Below are positions 37,647 to 42,921 of a stretch of 44,505 bases of DNA, piece by piece. A program made the position numbers and the translations under genes. The stretch spans positions 1-44,505 of the forward strand of contig JAPLCU010000029.1 in NCBI GenBank assembly GCA_026392045.1. The letters run 5' to 3'. Numbering within the stretch: the first letter of the stretch is position 1; the number at the start of each line of letters is the position of its first letter. The DNA comes from Armatimonadota bacterium. GTDB lineage: Bacteria > Armatimonadota > UBA5829. Under the pieces are notes generated by a model. The model saw only the letters and a program-made list of their open reading frames with translations. It was not told the DNA's origin and ran no database searches.

Positions 37647-39026
37647 ATGAGTTATTCCGGAGACAAAACGACAGTGCTAACTAACGATGGTGCCGTAAAT
37701 TTGCAAGTTTCATTACCTCCAATGACTGACTATGCTGAATACGTCGCGTCACTGGAGCAGAAAGTCAACCGGACTCTTGGTATAGAAAAATTCATTGTTG
37801 AGCAGAGCGAACTTCTAACGGTTCTGAATGGCGAACCAAGTCGTCAACTTAGACGTCTAGTAAAAATAGATGCCCGAAGAGCTTCTGGCGCATTCTTCAC
37901 GGACTCGCAACTGAGAGATAGGGCTCTTGAACATATTGGGAGAACCATTGATGCGCGATCAATCATACTTGATCCTGCATGTGGAGCTGGCGACCTCCTC
38001 ATAGCGGCGTCCAACTATCTTCCTGTGTGCAACAATAACTTAGCTGATACATTGGATTTATGGGGCACGGTTCTGAACGGGTATGACATACATCCTGAGT
38101 TTATTAGGACGACAAAGGCGCGCCTAGTCTTGGCTGCTGTCAAGCGTATGAAGTCATCTCATTATATTGTCGACAGTATAGATCCACGTTGCCTTTTTTC
38201 CAACATTCAAGTGCGAGACAGCCTTGATGGACACAGTTTTCACTGTAAACCGACACATATAGTAGTTAACCCCCCATACTCTTCGATTGACGCCGCAGCA
38301 GATTGTAAATGGGGCGGCGGCAAAGTATCTGTCGCAGGTGTATTCTTGGATGTATGTCTGCGCAGTGCAAAGGACGATACAGTAGTTTGCGCAATCCTTC
38401 CTGACGTATTAAGATCGGGCTCACGATATAAGAAGTGGCGTGAACAAGTGGAATCAAGCGCCAAAATATCGGCTGTGGATATTGTGGGACAATTCGACAT
38501 TTGGACGGATGTGGATGTCTTTGTTCTGCACTTGCAGGTCGACTCAACAAATGCGCGCGGAAGCAGAAGCGCGTGGGGTCAGCCAGAAACCAAGGAAGAT
38601 AACTGTGTAGACGATCTCTTTGAAGTATGCGTAGGAGCAGTCATTCCCCACAGGCATGCGCACACAGGGCCATGGCGCAGGTATATCTGCGCTCGCCAAC
38701 TATCTGGCCTAACCGAGTATGATACTGATACTGCGAAATCGCGTCGTTTTCAGGGACGTGTCTTTAGGCCGCCATTTGTTGTCGTGCGTCGGACAACTCG
38801 CCCAAGCGACTGTGCCAGAGTTTTTGGAACCGTCATTACGGGAGAGCAACCTGTGGCAGTCGAAAACCACCTTATAGTGTTGAGCCCCAAAGATGGGACC
38901 CACGAAACATGCGCGCGACTTATTGATGTGGTGCAGAACCCAAAAGCAACTACGTGGCTAAATCAGCGTATACGCTGCAGGCATTATACTGTTCTTGCCT
39001 TACGAGAACTGCCATGGTGTGAATAA
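37647..39026 (+). CDS. N6-adenine DNA methyltransferase-like protein
   Basis: This 459-residue protein has the layout of gamma-class (type I/IIG) adenine methyltransferases: motif X, RASGAFFTD (79-86); motif I, ILDPACGAGDLLIAAS (107-122, SAM binding); and motif IV, VVNPPYSSI (206-214, catalytic NPPY). An SLD-rich segment and motif VIII-like strands (VVCAILPDVLRSGSRYKKWRE) follow. The C-terminal 150 residues, containing FRPPFVVVRRTTRPSDCARVF and ENHLIVLSPK, look like a target-recognition domain. No endonuclease domain is seen in it, and none is encoded next to it except possibly the MBL-fold protein. It is the first gene of a tight operon; the next start lies 1 nt after its TAA. Confidence 0.8.
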   Translation: MSYSGDKTTVLTNDGAVNLQVSLPPMTDYAEYVASLEQKVNRTLGIEKFIVEQSELLTVLNGEPSRQLRRLVKIDARRASGAFFTDSQLRDRALEHIGRTIDARSIILDPACGAGDLLIAASNYLPVCNNNLADTLDLWGTVLNGYDIHPEFIRTTKARLVLAAVKRMKSSHYIVDSIDPRCLFSNIQVRDSLDGHSFHCKPTHIVVNPPYSSIDAAADCKWGGGKVSVAGVFLDVCLRSAKDDTVVCAILPDVLRSGSRYKKWREQVESSAKISAVDIVGQFDIWTDVDVFVLHLQVDSTNARGSRSAWGQPETKEDNCVDDLFEVCVGAVIPHRHAHTGPWRRYICARQLSGLTEYDTDTAKSRRFQGRVFRPPFVVVRRTTRPSDCARVFGTVITGEQPVAVENHLIVLSPKDGTHETCARLIDVVQNPKATTWLNQRIRCRHYTVLALRELPWCE

Positions 39027-39027
39027 C

Positions 39028-41130
39028 ATGTCCAATGAAGAAAGCATTATAAACGAAGATACAGAGCCAACAGTATCGCTCAAGTTCGCCCCCGACATAC
39101 TGCGAAGGCTGGGTGAAGAGTTGATACCCCACGTCGACCAAGGCATTCTTGAACTCGTACGTAATGCCTATGATGCAGATGCTGTTAATTGCAGTGTTGA
39201 ATTAATTGATGTCGAGAACGCAGGCGGCGCAATCCGTATTGTCGATGATGGCACTGGAATGAGTTATTCTGACATCACAGCAGGGTGGCTAGTGCTTGGC
39301 CGTTCCGGAAAGGTCGGGCGCGAACTAACTAAGAAATTGCAACGGCTTCCTGTGGGTGATAAAGGCCTTGGACGTCTTGCCGCACTTAGGCTCGGAGCGC
39401 AGGCTAGATTAGTTACACGTTCTGCAGATAATCCAGGCATCGAGTACGAATTGACGCTCAACTGGACTGACTTCGATAAAGCTGCTACAGTGGAAAGCGT
39501 GCCTCTAAGAATTGAACAGCGCGTCTCTATTGCCGCACCCGGCACTGAGATTGAGATTATAGGACTACGCATTTCGCTCAATCGCATGGACGTGCAAAGA
39601 CTTGCTCGCTCCTTAGTGCTGCTCGCAGACCCATTCGGCAGCTCAACAGGATTCCGCCCGACACTTCAATCGCCTGAATTTGAAGATATATCAAGGTTAG
39701 TGTCTGATTTGTATTTTGATGATGCAGAGTTTAAATTAGTAGCGGAACTCAACGCTGAAGGACAAGCATCAGCTGTAGTCTACGGATATCCCTCAAGTAA
39801 CGTTCTGTTTCGTACGAACGCGAGCGACCTGAATGCACCATACAAAACTGCTCTTGCCAGTTTTACTATGTGGACATTCGTATTAGACAAACCCACCTTT
39901 TCTCGGCGAAATTCTAGCGTAACCGAGGTCAGAGATTGGCTTCAAGAAGTGGGAGGGGTGCATCTATACCATAGGGGACTAAGGGTCTACCCTTATGGTG
40001 ACAAGGGGCATGATTGGCTGGATATGAACCTGAGGCGTGCACAAAGCCCTGAAGTGCGCCCATCTACAAACACCGTTATTGGACTAGTTAAAGTCGAAGA
40101 TGGCGGCGATGTACTGCTCCAGAAGACAGACAGAACTGGATTTGTTGAAAATGAAGCATTCATAGAACTGAGGCGCTTTGCCCACGATGCGCTTGAGTGG
40201 ATGGCAAAGGAAAGACTCAAGCAACGAGAGATTAGGCGTATCCAAGATAAGACTACCGCAGAGGAAAAGCTTGCGCAGGCCAAGGGGCTTGTTTCAAATG
40301 CGATAAAGGAGCTGCCCAACGAGTATAGATCCAAAGTAGAGAATGCAGTTAAGAAGCTGGAAGACGAAGGAGAGCGGGTAGCGAAATCACTCAAAGAAGA
40401 TTTGCATCTCTACCGCACACTCGCAACAGTTGGAACAACCGCAGCTGTTTTTGCACACGAATCAGCTCAGCCTGTGACACGTATTGAGAGAACGGCCGAC
40501 GAGATTATGCGCCAAGTTAAGGGAGAACTTAACCTATACGAACGCGACAATATCGCTACCTTGGCAGACATTGTCAAAAAAGCCAGTCGCTCGATAAGAA
40601 GCTTCGCGGGCTTACCTATTAATCTGCTTAAACGTGAAAAGCGAAAACTAGGATCCGTCGATATCAATGCTGTAGTCACTGATCTTTCAGAGCTATTTAC
40701 TCCGTTTCTTACTGAATCTAAAATAGGCGTAAAGCTAACGCTTATTGACAATCCTAGCCCGGTGGTGTGGGGTAGCATAACATCCATAGAATCTATAGTA
40801 GCGAATCTGCTGACGAACGCGGCTCATGCGCTAATCTACCGTGGCAGAAAGCGAACTGGAATTAGATCAATTCTAATTGAGACGTCTCTTTCTTCGGACA
40901 AAGTGTTACTCAGAGTTTTGGACAACGGCCCCGGGATAAAGAACATAAATAAGGATGAAATCTGGCTTCCTGGAAGAACCACAAAAACCGGAGGTTGCGG
41001 ACTGGGATTGACTATTGTCAAGGATGTGGCAACTGACCTCAATGGTAATGTTCAGGTCATTTCACCTGGAGAGTTGGGGGGCGCCGAATTCCTGGTTCTG
41101 TTACCGCTGTTTCTGAAAGAAGGAGACTAA
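39028..41130 (+). CDS. Dual-ATPase protein: MORC/HSP90-like GHKL domain fused to a histidine-kinase core
   Basis: This soluble 700-residue protein has two GHKL ATPase domains. The N-terminal one has ELVRNAYDADA (42-52, N box), DDGTGM (73-78, G1) and GDKGLGR (110-116, G2), and is followed by a transducer-like segment with YHRGLRVYPYGDKGHDWLD (about 314-332), as in bacterial MORC/MutL-like ATPases. A coiled coil lies at about 395-460. The C-terminal half is a histidine kinase core: FAHESAQPVTRIERTADEI with His477 as candidate phosphoacceptor, NLLTNAAHA (593-601), VLDNGPGI (630-637) and TGGCGLGLTIVKD (654-666). There is no transmembrane segment, so the N-terminal ATPase may be the sensor. It starts 1 nt after the methyltransferase stop; the receiver gene follows after 7 nt. 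Confidence 0.85.
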   Translation: MSNEESIINEDTEPTVSLKFAPDILRRLGEELIPHVDQGILELVRNAYDADAVNCSVELIDVENAGGAIRIVDDGTGMSYSDITAGWLVLGRSGKVGRELTKKLQRLPVGDKGLGRLAALRLGAQARLVTRSADNPGIEYELTLNWTDFDKAATVESVPLRIEQRVSIAAPGTEIEIIGLRISLNRMDVQRLARSLVLLADPFGSSTGFRPTLQSPEFEDISRLVSDLYFDDAEFKLVAELNAEGQASAVVYGYPSSNVLFRTNASDLNAPYKTALASFTMWTFVLDKPTFSRRNSSVTEVRDWLQEVGGVHLYHRGLRVYPYGDKGHDWLDMNLRRAQSPEVRPSTNTVIGLVKVEDGGDVLLQKTDRTGFVENEAFIELRRFAHDALEWMAKERLKQREIRRIQDKTTAEEKLAQAKGLVSNAIKELPNEYRSKVENAVKKLEDEGERVAKSLKEDLHLYRTLATVGTTAAVFAHESAQPVTRIERTADEIMRQVKGELNLYERDNIATLADIVKKASRSIRSFAGLPINLLKREKRKLGSVDINAVVTDLSELFTPFLTESKIGVKLTLIDNPSPVVWGSITSIESIVANLLTNAAHALIYRGRKRTGIRSILIETSLSSDKVLLRVLDNGPGIKNINKDEIWLPGRTTKTGGCGLGLTIVKDVATDLNGNVQVISPGELGGAEFLVLLPLFLKEGD

Positions 41131-41137
41131 AACCACC

Positions 41138-41830
41138 ATGATCAATGGCATACAGAAGATCGCTATAATCGATGACAAAAGAGATGAAGTCATGCTCACA
41201 GGTATAATGCTGCAAAGAGTCGGTTTTGAACCCATACCGTTTTCCGAACCCGTACAGATGAACGATCTAATTGAGAGAATATTGAAAACCGCTGATGCCG
41301 CTTTGTGCGATAACTACCTACAACCCGGCGGTTTTGACTTTAGCGGAGCGGAAGTAATGGCAGAGCTTTACAAATTGAAGTTTCCGGCTGTTCTGGTATC
41401 GCAATATTTGCAGCAGGATCTGGAAGTGTCCATTCGCAAGGAACGTCGCAGCATTCCAGTTGCCTTAAGTAAGGATGATGTTGATGGCGATAGTATTATC
41501 GAAGGTCTTAAGATATGCGCAAATGAACATCGAGACATGATACTTCCAACTCGGCGACCTTGTCGCACGCTTATCCAAATAGCACGTGTAAAAGATGAGG
41601 ACGGCGAAAAAGTTCTGGATGCCTTCGTGGTATCACGAGGAAGCAAGCGTGCTGTTAGATTTCCGGCATCCTTAATGGGCCAACTCGCTGAACGTGTCGA
41701 ACGAGACGACTATTATATAGTAAGATCGAACACGGGTGCTACACTTGACACTGATCTCTTTTTCTATGACTTTGAGATCGCCCCTGAGCCACCCACGGAG
41801 GAAGAGATTGCACAAAGTAACAATCCTTGA
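41138..41830 (+). CDS. Receiver-domain protein with unassigned C-terminal domain
   Basis: The protein has 230 residues. Residues 1-125 fit a response-regulator receiver: IAIIDDKRDE (Asp12-Asp13), candidate phosphoacceptor Asp58 in AALCDNYLQPGG, VLVSQYLQ (the Thr/Ser position) and the conserved Lys112 in ALSKDDVD. The partner is most likely the kinase just upstream. Residues 140-215 (LIQIARVKDEDGEKVLDAFV, RAVRFPASLMGQLAERV, DYYIVRSNTGATLDTDLFF) form a small beta-rich domain that I do not recognise; it has no DNA-binding motif. AAGGAG (41119-41124) serves the start. The 3' end overlaps the next gene by 23 nt. Confidence 0.78.
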   Translation: MINGIQKIAIIDDKRDEVMLTGIMLQRVGFEPIPFSEPVQMNDLIERILKTADAALCDNYLQPGGFDFSGAEVMAELYKLKFPAVLVSQYLQQDLEVSIRKERRSIPVALSKDDVDGDSIIEGLKICANEHRDMILPTRRPCRTLIQIARVKDEDGEKVLDAFVVSRGSKRAVRFPASLMGQLAERVERDDYYIVRSNTGATLDTDLFFYDFEIAPEPPTEEEIAQSNNP

Positions 41831-42788
41831 TGTGGGACATGGGAACTGTGCTTTAATAAGTGATTCAGCAGGTTCTATTGTCATTGATGGCGGATCACAT
41901 CAGACTCTTCTTCAATATCTCGAATCGGCCAATATCAATATGATTGATGATGTCATAATTTCACATGCCGATGCAGATCATATTGGTGGCCTAATTGATG
42001 TATTTCTTAAATCCAAAATCGTCGTTAAGCGAGTGTTCGTAAATCCAGATGCTTTGCGTACGACTAATATGTGGGCTGAACTTCGCCTTGCTCTATCCGT
42101 CCGTCTCAAGAATAAAACGACAGAGATTCATACAGAATTGACATCAAATGTGTCATCCATACTTACAAGAAAAAGTTTAACAGTTGAGGTCTTGTACCCG
42201 TCTCCAATTTCGGCAATGTCCGGCATTGGAGGTGCCGATCTGGACGGCAAAATCAACGATCCTAATACAATGTCAGCAGTTGTACGCGTGATCGCCGATA
42301 CCGGCTTATCGCTGCTGCTGCCAGGCGATATAGACGATGTCGGATTAGACCGGCTAATCGCTGATAATATTGACATCAACGCGCGAATACTAATATATCC
42401 CCACCATGGCGGTCTGCCCGGTAATGGCGATATCTCCGAGTTTGTTAGTAAGATATGCAACAATGTTAATCCCGAGTTAATAATATTTTCAGTGGGCAGA
42501 GGCAAACACAATAATCCCAAGCCAGATGTCATAAAAGCTATTAGAACCGCCATACCAGACGTTCAAATCATGTGCACGCAACTCTCCGAGATGTGCTCAG
42601 GAAACACTCCCAGCTACGAACGACATCACAATAGTGATCGAGTCGCTCAGGGGCTTGAGACCAACGTATGCTGTGCAGGTAGCATTGAATTGAACTTGGA
42701 TACTGACCAAATAATCTGCTTGCCGTCTTTAGAGAACCATGCCGATTTTGTTAAAGAGTTTGCTCCATCTGCTTTGTGTAATAGTTGA
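41808..42788 (+). CDS. ComEC-like metallo-beta-lactamase-fold hydrolase
   Basis: This 326-residue protein resembles the MBL-fold domain of ComEC/Rec2 and related free-standing hydrolases. It has VTILDVGHGNCALI (usual form DVGQGDA), IVIDGG, the metal motif SHADADHIGGL (His53, Asp55, Asp57, His58), LLLPGDID with a metal-bridging Asp, and YPHHGGLPGN. This group includes nucleases and phosphodiesterases, so nucleic acid or a cyclic nucleotide is the likely substrate. It has no membrane segment. I start at TTG 41808, with GGAGG (41797-41801) six bases upstream and inside the receiver gene; an ATG exists at 41736 but without a site. It is the last gene of the operon; a strong terminator follows. 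Confidence 0.8.
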   Translation: MHKVTILDVGHGNCALISDSAGSIVIDGGSHQTLLQYLESANINMIDDVIISHADADHIGGLIDVFLKSKIVVKRVFVNPDALRTTNMWAELRLALSVRLKNKTTEIHTELTSNVSSILTRKSLTVEVLYPSPISAMSGIGGADLDGKINDPNTMSAVVRVIADTGLSLLLPGDIDDVGLDRLIADNIDINARILIYPHHGGLPGNGDISEFVSKICNNVNPELIIFSVGRGKHNNPKPDVIKAIRTAIPDVQIMCTQLSEMCSGNTPSYERHHNSDRVAQGLETNVCCAGSIELNLDTDQIICLPSLENHADFVKEFAPSALCNS

Positions 42789-42886: not shown

Positions 42887-42921
42887 AGTGTGGGGTCCGA
42901 AGTTGGACCCCACACTATTTT
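42887..42921. terminator. Bidirectional terminator after the four-gene operon
   Basis: AGTGTGGGGTCC (42887-42898) pairs perfectly with GGACCCCACACT (42905-42916) around GAAGTT; ATTTTG follows on the plus strand. It lies between the convergent ends of the MBL-fold gene and the GEVED gene. Confidence 0.85.

Follow-up and report, generated by a model that had tools for sequence, protein, structure and literature searches.

A dual-GHKL clamp-histidine kinase in a candidate phosphorelay-gated restriction module

What does a MORC-like ATPase do in the sensor position of a histidine kinase, and on which partner might the resulting signal act? The question is raised by a gene in the window, the whole stretch of 44,505 nucleotides analysed here, whose 700-residue product had been claimed in a preliminary description to combine two GHKL ATPase domains and to signal to a receiver. 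We find this gene to be one of a set of four (Table 1), flanked by the genes of a DNA methyltransferase on one side and of a response regulator and an MBL-fold hydrolase on the other, and we hold it to be reasonably probable that the four act together as a mobile, restriction-like module: an ATP clamp would gate a His-Asp relay, and the relay would in turn license a nuclease. The dual-ATPase architecture stands as it was described, while its earlier publication, the methyltransferase and MBL genes of the cassette and the persistence of the ATPase after decay of the DHp domain had all been missed.

Table 1. Positions, in the window, of the cassette genes, of the parts of the kinase and of the downstream hairpin, with the basis of each assignment.
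Feature	Coordinates	Strand	Basis
DNA adenine-type (N6) methyltransferase, 459 aa, motifs DPACGAG and NPPY	37647..39026	+	Pfam, PADLOC, conservation
Dual-GHKL clamp-histidine kinase, 700 aa from ATG	39028..41130	+	ORF call, Pfam, profiles, conservation, AlphaFold2 model
N-terminal MORC/MutL-type GHKL ATPase, residues about 15-200	39070..39627	+	HATPase_c_3, MORC2/3 and MutL matches, model
S5/transducer-like segment, residues about 205-372, K366 in QKTDRTGF	39640..40143	+	Model, Morc3 alignment, conservation
Long coiled-coil helix, clamp-to-kinase linker, residues about 376-468	40153..40431	+	AlphaFold2 model
Phosphoacceptor His477 codon, DHp motif FAHES	40456..40458	+	Invariant in 52 aligned homologues
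C-terminal HATPase_c (CA) domain of the kinase, residues about 541-697	40648..41118	+	Pfam; ZraS, ThkA and CpxA matches
Response regulator, 230 aa: receiver (about 1-131) and C-terminal β-rich output domain (about 139-215)	41138..41830	+	AlphaFold2, structure matches, conservation
ComEC-type MBL-fold hydrolase, predicted nuclease, HADADH and PHHGG	41808..42788	+	Lactamase_B, ComEC_Rec2, solved ComEC chains, conserved ligands
Terminator-like hairpin, 13 pairs, T-rich tail on both strands	42887..42916	+	Position after last cassette gene

Pfam places HATPase_c_3 at residues 39-162 of the kinase (E 4e-19) and HATPase_c at 585-694 (E 1.3e-18), and in a profile built from 52 homologues the N-terminal part matches MORC2, MORC3 and MutL chains, and positions 439-680 match ZraS and other DHp+CA kinases. 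The AlphaFold2 model (mean pLDDT 83.5) comprises a GHKL domain, a transducer, the helix 376-468, the DHp helices 470-533 and the CA domain 541-697, and its coiled coil joins the N-terminal clamp to a full histidine kinase core, as anticipated. Residues 19-400 align with the Morc3 ATPase-CW cassette (Z 19.7, 299 residues, rmsd 4.3); the MutL N-terminus follows closely (Z 18.5, 287 residues, rmsd 3.6), and histidine kinases are matched with Z about 21. Profile and model thus agree with the earlier claim that a MORC-like ATPase with its transducer takes the sensor position. An extension of the ORF from a TTG at 38995 is possible and would overlap the upstream gene.

The N-terminal ATP-site residues E42, N46, D73, G75, G77, K112, G113 and G115 are identical in all 55 MBL-linked homologues, as are H477, E478, N593, N597, D632, G636, G656, G658 and G660, which bears out the assignment of His477; the transducer K366 is kept in 54 of the 55. 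Like MORC and paraMORC ATPases, the N-terminus carries the GHKL catalytic Glu, the N, G1 and G2 motifs and the S5/transducer Lys, and the C-terminal half has the H, N, G1, F and G2 boxes of histidine kinases (the F box judged by eye) together with the DHp+CA fold. Because the catalytic residues are invariant and the folds intact, both ATPase domains are non-degenerate, and inspection of sequence and predicted structure for a domain lacking an ATP pocket yielded none. The N-terminal ATPase is a candidate ATP-driven DNA clamp, and comparison of relatives, as set out below, indirectly supports a kinase half that would autophosphorylate and pass its phosphate on.

The methyltransferase gene ends one base upstream of the kinase gene; its product matches N6_Mtase in Pfam (E 9.6e-5) and MTase_II in PADLOC (E 1.1e-17), and its motif residues are invariant across 25 aligned homologues. 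The response regulator matches no Pfam family up to E 1, Response_reg_2 (PF19192) included, and its AlphaFold2 model (pLDDT 95.8) matches CheY-type receivers with Z about 14. These structure matches span residues 1-134 and stop short of the β-rich C-terminal domain, which none of the searches accounted for. Among the residues of the acidic pair and phosphoacceptor, D13 and D58 are invariant and D12 is nearly so in 52 sequences; the canonical β5 Lys is absent from the invariant and nearly invariant columns of the same set, a point against the relay that we favour. The MBL gene, for which we place the start at the TTG at 41808, overlaps the receiver gene. Its product matches Lactamase_B (E 5.5e-11), ComEC_Rec2 (E 1.3e-14) and solved ComEC chains (E down to 8e-20), and the metal ligands H50, D52, D54, H55, D171, H196 and H197 are invariant in the 47 homologues aligned of 55 found. 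Outside this site, C253, C260, C286, C321 and H308 are nearly invariant and may form an additional metal site.

The hairpin sits between the cassette and a convergent gene for a GEVED-domain protein, and is possibly a terminator shared by both; it is only suggestive, because three terminator-like sites were found against 4.7 expected by chance. Promoter-like sites in the window do not exceed chance, and the window holds no RNA families or tRNAs.

In a scan of a genome collection, 80 loci were kept of at least 559 relatives. We defined as core set the 56 full-length kinases with a profile score of at least 760 bits, drawn from the kept loci, plasmid loci, locus L007 and the window. The receiver gene lies directly downstream of the kinase gene in all 56 core loci, and the MBL gene is present in 55 (the exception being L060); restricted to loci with at least 1.7 kb of downstream sequence, the counts are 54/54 and 53/54. 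The methyltransferase is less constant. Counting only the 54 loci with at least 1.5 kb upstream, a methyltransferase of the same family is found within 3 kb upstream in 31 (27 on the same strand, 4 divergent), and a further one in L041 and two located downstream (L046, L052) bring those with a methyltransferase nearby to 34 of 54. Of the 16 cyanobacterial core loci, 15 extend far enough upstream, and in none of these does it adjoin the cassette; a genome-wide search in 22 genomes of methyltransferase-less loci was positive in three (L041, L046 and L052), none of them cyanobacterial. From the cyanobacterial absence it follows that marking by an own methyltransferase is not essential to the core trio. 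In L057 and L058, a C5-type methyltransferase, recognised by motif match only, directly follows the MBL gene.

By record title, hosts of the loci include Cyanobacteria, Chloroflexota, Actinomycetota, Pseudomonadota, Bacteroidota, Acidobacteriota, Planctomycetota and Spirochaetota. Among 291 genomes of the window's own phylum, kinase, receiver and methyltransferase each occur in the same two, and none of the three was found in the remaining 14 members of the family to which the window belongs. Receiver and close kinase homologues occur on the same three plasmids, and the region of one plasmid copy also has an integrase and a HerA gene named as anti-phage-associated. This patchy spread and the GC content of the cassette (about 44-51%, against about 50-56% in the flanking genes) fit horizontal transfer. 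No relative is encoded on viral contigs, and phage records yielded a single partial match, of 28% identity, in a short unannotated record. Around ten core loci without an adjacent upstream methyltransferase, PADLOC families at E 1e-15 numbered 141 in 72 flank ORFs, as compared to 79 in 83 control ORFs taken from nine regions of these genomes, many of the models being redundant; defence genes occur in both sets, and the flank set includes two methyltransferase-model matches.

Two plasmids merit separate mention. On a Pseudanabaena plasmid (L008:10848-12801, + strand), an IS982 transposase splits the MBL gene, and this copy is probably inactive because of the interruption. On the Campylobacter coli plasmid pCCDM224L (L013:7989-11193, + strand), a distantly related dual-GHKL kinase and its receiver adjoin a dcm gene; related kinases are found on 41 Campylobacter plasmid records.

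On what, then, might the receiver act? A quick tree of 86 kinases, to be read with a long-branch warning, groups 59 of them in one branch (SH-aLRT 100), which includes all 55 MBL loci. In its sister group, the gene after the receiver encodes an HNH nuclease in eight loci, in place of the MBL protein (six called by Pfam, among them L084 slightly below the threshold, and two more by a profile built from these six). Six of the eight receivers from this HNH branch still match the receiver profile of the MBL type, all within the first 130 of its 212 positions, but none of the eight matches its output-domain part. The constant presence of a nuclease-type gene after the receiver, combined with an output half that changes with it, is the best evidence, drawn from comparison of sequences, that the receiver may act on the nuclease.

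The same observations bear on the alternative that the cassette is an ordinary two-component system, whose receiver controls transcription of the methyltransferase and nuclease genes. Two-component systems usually act on transcription, and signalling that controls R-M systems has been speculated upon in the accessible part of an earlier study (Bellieny-Rabelo, 2021, PMC8011034). As a transcription factor, however, the receiver protein was a candidate that we set aside: Pfam recognises no DNA-binding domain in it, although the fold of its C-terminal domain lies outside the structure matches. Loss of the output-half match in the HNH branch is, moreover, expected for direct protein contact and not for promoter binding, and a nuclease-type gene follows the receiver in all but one of the core loci, so that we regard transcriptional control as unlikely.

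A second alternative, in which the MBL protein is no nuclease and hydrolyses a small signal or nucleotide, the module being a switch unrelated to DNA cutting, appears decidedly improbable: substrates of the MBL fold are diverse and there are weak matches to Apyc1 and other hydrolases, but the best matches are ComEC nuclease-type domains with HxDxDH, and the place of the MBL gene is taken by HNH nucleases among the sister loci and, in L060, by a PIN_3 gene.

This last locus (L060:10096-12797, + strand) lies within the MBL branch and has, after the receiver gene, the PIN_3 gene followed by a Fic-family gene. Its receiver protein bears an extra 46-residue tail ahead of the PIN gene, which we suspect, from a resemblance, to be an antitoxin-like remnant. 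A clean effector swap is thus doubtful here, and an inserted toxin-antitoxin pair fused to the receiver is possible; no second copy turned up when that genome was searched. Apparent fusions of receiver and MBL protein in L041 and L047 were rejected, the long MBL ORF and the receiver being separate, overlapping ORFs. The output domain also occurs in other settings, as indicated by a 315-residue ORF in the L061 genome (L122:766-1710, - strand) that matches profile positions 138-212 only, has no match to the receiver half, and has no kinase, MBL or methyltransferase gene within the 4 kb read.

Whether phosphate reaches the receiver at all can be approached through relatives that lack one. Four Streptomyces-group loci (L061, L062, L068 and L108) have neither a receiver nor an MBL gene beside the kinase; the tree places the kinases of L061, L062 and L068 within the MBL branch, and that of L108 is 75% identical to that of L061. 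All four neighbour a methyltransferase and a BsuBI/PstI restriction endonuclease, the latter identified by Pfam in L061, L062 and L068 (E 2e-57 or better) and in L108 by similarity to the L061 enzyme. Their DHp segments measure 45-49 residues, against 80-81 in the receiver-bearing relatives measured, and the phosphoacceptor position holds Tyr in L061, Arg in L062 and His, followed by Asp, in L068, and is deleted in L108. L061, L062 and L068 nonetheless keep the key residues of the ATPase motifs in both domains, save for one Gly-to-Ser change in L062, and in L108 the four residues checked (E42, N46, K366 and N597) are all present. Among 62 clade members, the His is kept in all 58 with a receiver gene and in one of the four without (Fisher's test, p 1e-4, a value that overstates independence, since the four loci without a receiver are closely related), and the Glu that follows the His is likewise invariant in receiver-bearing members (56/56, plus 2 more). 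The genomes of L061 and L068 yielded no full-length receiver of the cassette type.

Decay of the DHp domain where the receiver is missing therefore ties the phospho-His to the receiver, and this coupling is the best evidence here that phosphate may pass from H477 to the receiver. As the ATPase motifs outlast the DHp domain, the clamp probably does more than gate phosphotransfer. The least probable of the alternatives, and a very unlikely one, makes phosphotransfer secondary, with the protein mainly an ATP-driven DNA clamp or nuclease loader and the kinase half serving mostly for dimerisation: it draws on these same BsuBI/PstI-linked relatives, which lose DHp and keep the GHKL motifs, and on the resemblance of the N-terminus to BbrUII/HgiDII-family restriction enzymes (63.6 bits), yet runs against the invariant His and Glu of the receiver-bearing members and the invariant or nearly invariant Asp residues of the receiver. 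We see in the four loci a natural conversion, from kinase to plain ATPase partner of a restriction enzyme, which separates what the clamp does by itself from phosphotransfer and so makes both testable.

Our favoured reading, a relay that licenses a nuclease, builds on catalytic residues that are intact by sequence and comparison, on strict gene linkage, on the exchange of the MBL gene along with a changed receiver output half and on DHp decay without a receiver. The methyltransferase would mark host DNA; the MORC-type clamp would detect a DNA or phage cue, possibly by binding DNA, and close on ATP. Closure would be transmitted through the coiled coil to the DHp helices, where the C-terminal ATPase would phosphorylate His477, and from there the phosphate would move to Asp58 of the receiver, whose private C-terminal domain may then switch on, or release, the putative ComEC-type MBL nuclease. 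The nature of the cue, the binding of DNA, the sign and direction of the signal, the nuclease activity and the purpose in defence are what we infer in this scheme. We propose gating of the kinase by the clamp because a MORC-like fold occupies the sensor position and is joined to the kinase by the coiled coil, and because VcSduA offers a precedent (PMC12137116, as far as that report is accessible); we propose a defensive role because of the methyltransferase, the restriction-enzyme relatives, the patchy spread and the published R-M association.

A broader form of this proposal is more tentative, and we give it slightly less than even weight: phosphorelay-gated restriction, in which a MORC-type clamp acting as kinase sensor would license interchangeable nucleases (MBL, HNH and perhaps PIN) through a receiver output half matched to the nuclease, and in which a kinase that loses its receiver would go back to being simply the ATPase partner of an ordinary restriction enzyme. 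In restriction systems, recognition and cutting are as a rule coupled within one complex. If the proposal holds, His-Asp phosphotransfer would be an added layer of control between the two, and a putatively soluble two-component relay from an ATP clamp to a separate nuclease would follow a different control logic; it would also help to account for the repeated occurrence of MORC-type ATPases in R-M neighbourhoods.

Two-component-like defence is known from Detocs. A figure legend of DefensePredictor names HATPase and REC domains (PMC13092281, accessible part), and the accessible parts of Kaur 2020 (PMC7159879) and of a BREX survey (PMC12839542) do not describe the present system. In the open-licence literature, subscription papers being outside its scope, we found neither the MBL cassette nor a concerted change of output half and nuclease nor DHp decay without a receiver.

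Among ATPases coupled to nucleases, a precedent is VcSduA, a Shedu protein whose N-terminal GHKL domain is required for nuclease-based phage defence, which the E27A exchange abolished; according to the accessible part of the report (PMC12137116), this domain is fused directly to a PD-(D/E)xK nuclease, without the kinase, receiver and MBL protein seen here. The paraMORC ATPases, in the accessible part of their description (Iyer et al., 2008, PMC2292703), likewise have an N-terminal GHKL domain and S5 segment encoded beside DNA methylases and nucleases, but neither a histidine kinase half nor a receiver is described there. BbrUII/HgiDII-family restriction enzymes (NCBIfam NF050001) have a similar N-terminal GHKL domain, which the kinase matches over residues 24-196 only and far under the family cut-off (550 bits). 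The MBL protein shares with the corresponding domain of ComEC/Rec2 the fold, HxDxDH and PHHGG, and matches to solved structures, but stands alone, without the ComEC channel, and has extra conserved Cys and His residues near its C-terminus.

The architecture itself, HATPase_c_3, DHp and HATPase_c in one protein, was published in 2021 together with its link to R-M systems (Bellieny-Rabelo, PMC8011034). As far as that paper is accessible, its HEF_HK/Response_reg_2 systems resemble ours in this combination (174/222 there), in an adjacent receiver gene and in R-M genes nearby; they differ in that their methyltransferases are mostly of the C5 type, as opposed to N6 here, in that the query receiver has 600 residues, as opposed to 230, and in that no MBL third gene is described for them. 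HEF_HK (PF19191) does not match the window's kinase, and its two sub-threshold matches in the genome are both to other genes. The two groups are probably remote kin, because a distant relative of our branch (L086) nears the cut-off of Response_reg_2 (25.2 bits, against 27). Within this published architecture, the present branch is a gene set of its own, made up of an adenine-type methyltransferase, a clamp-kinase, a receiver with a private C-terminal domain and an MBL protein.
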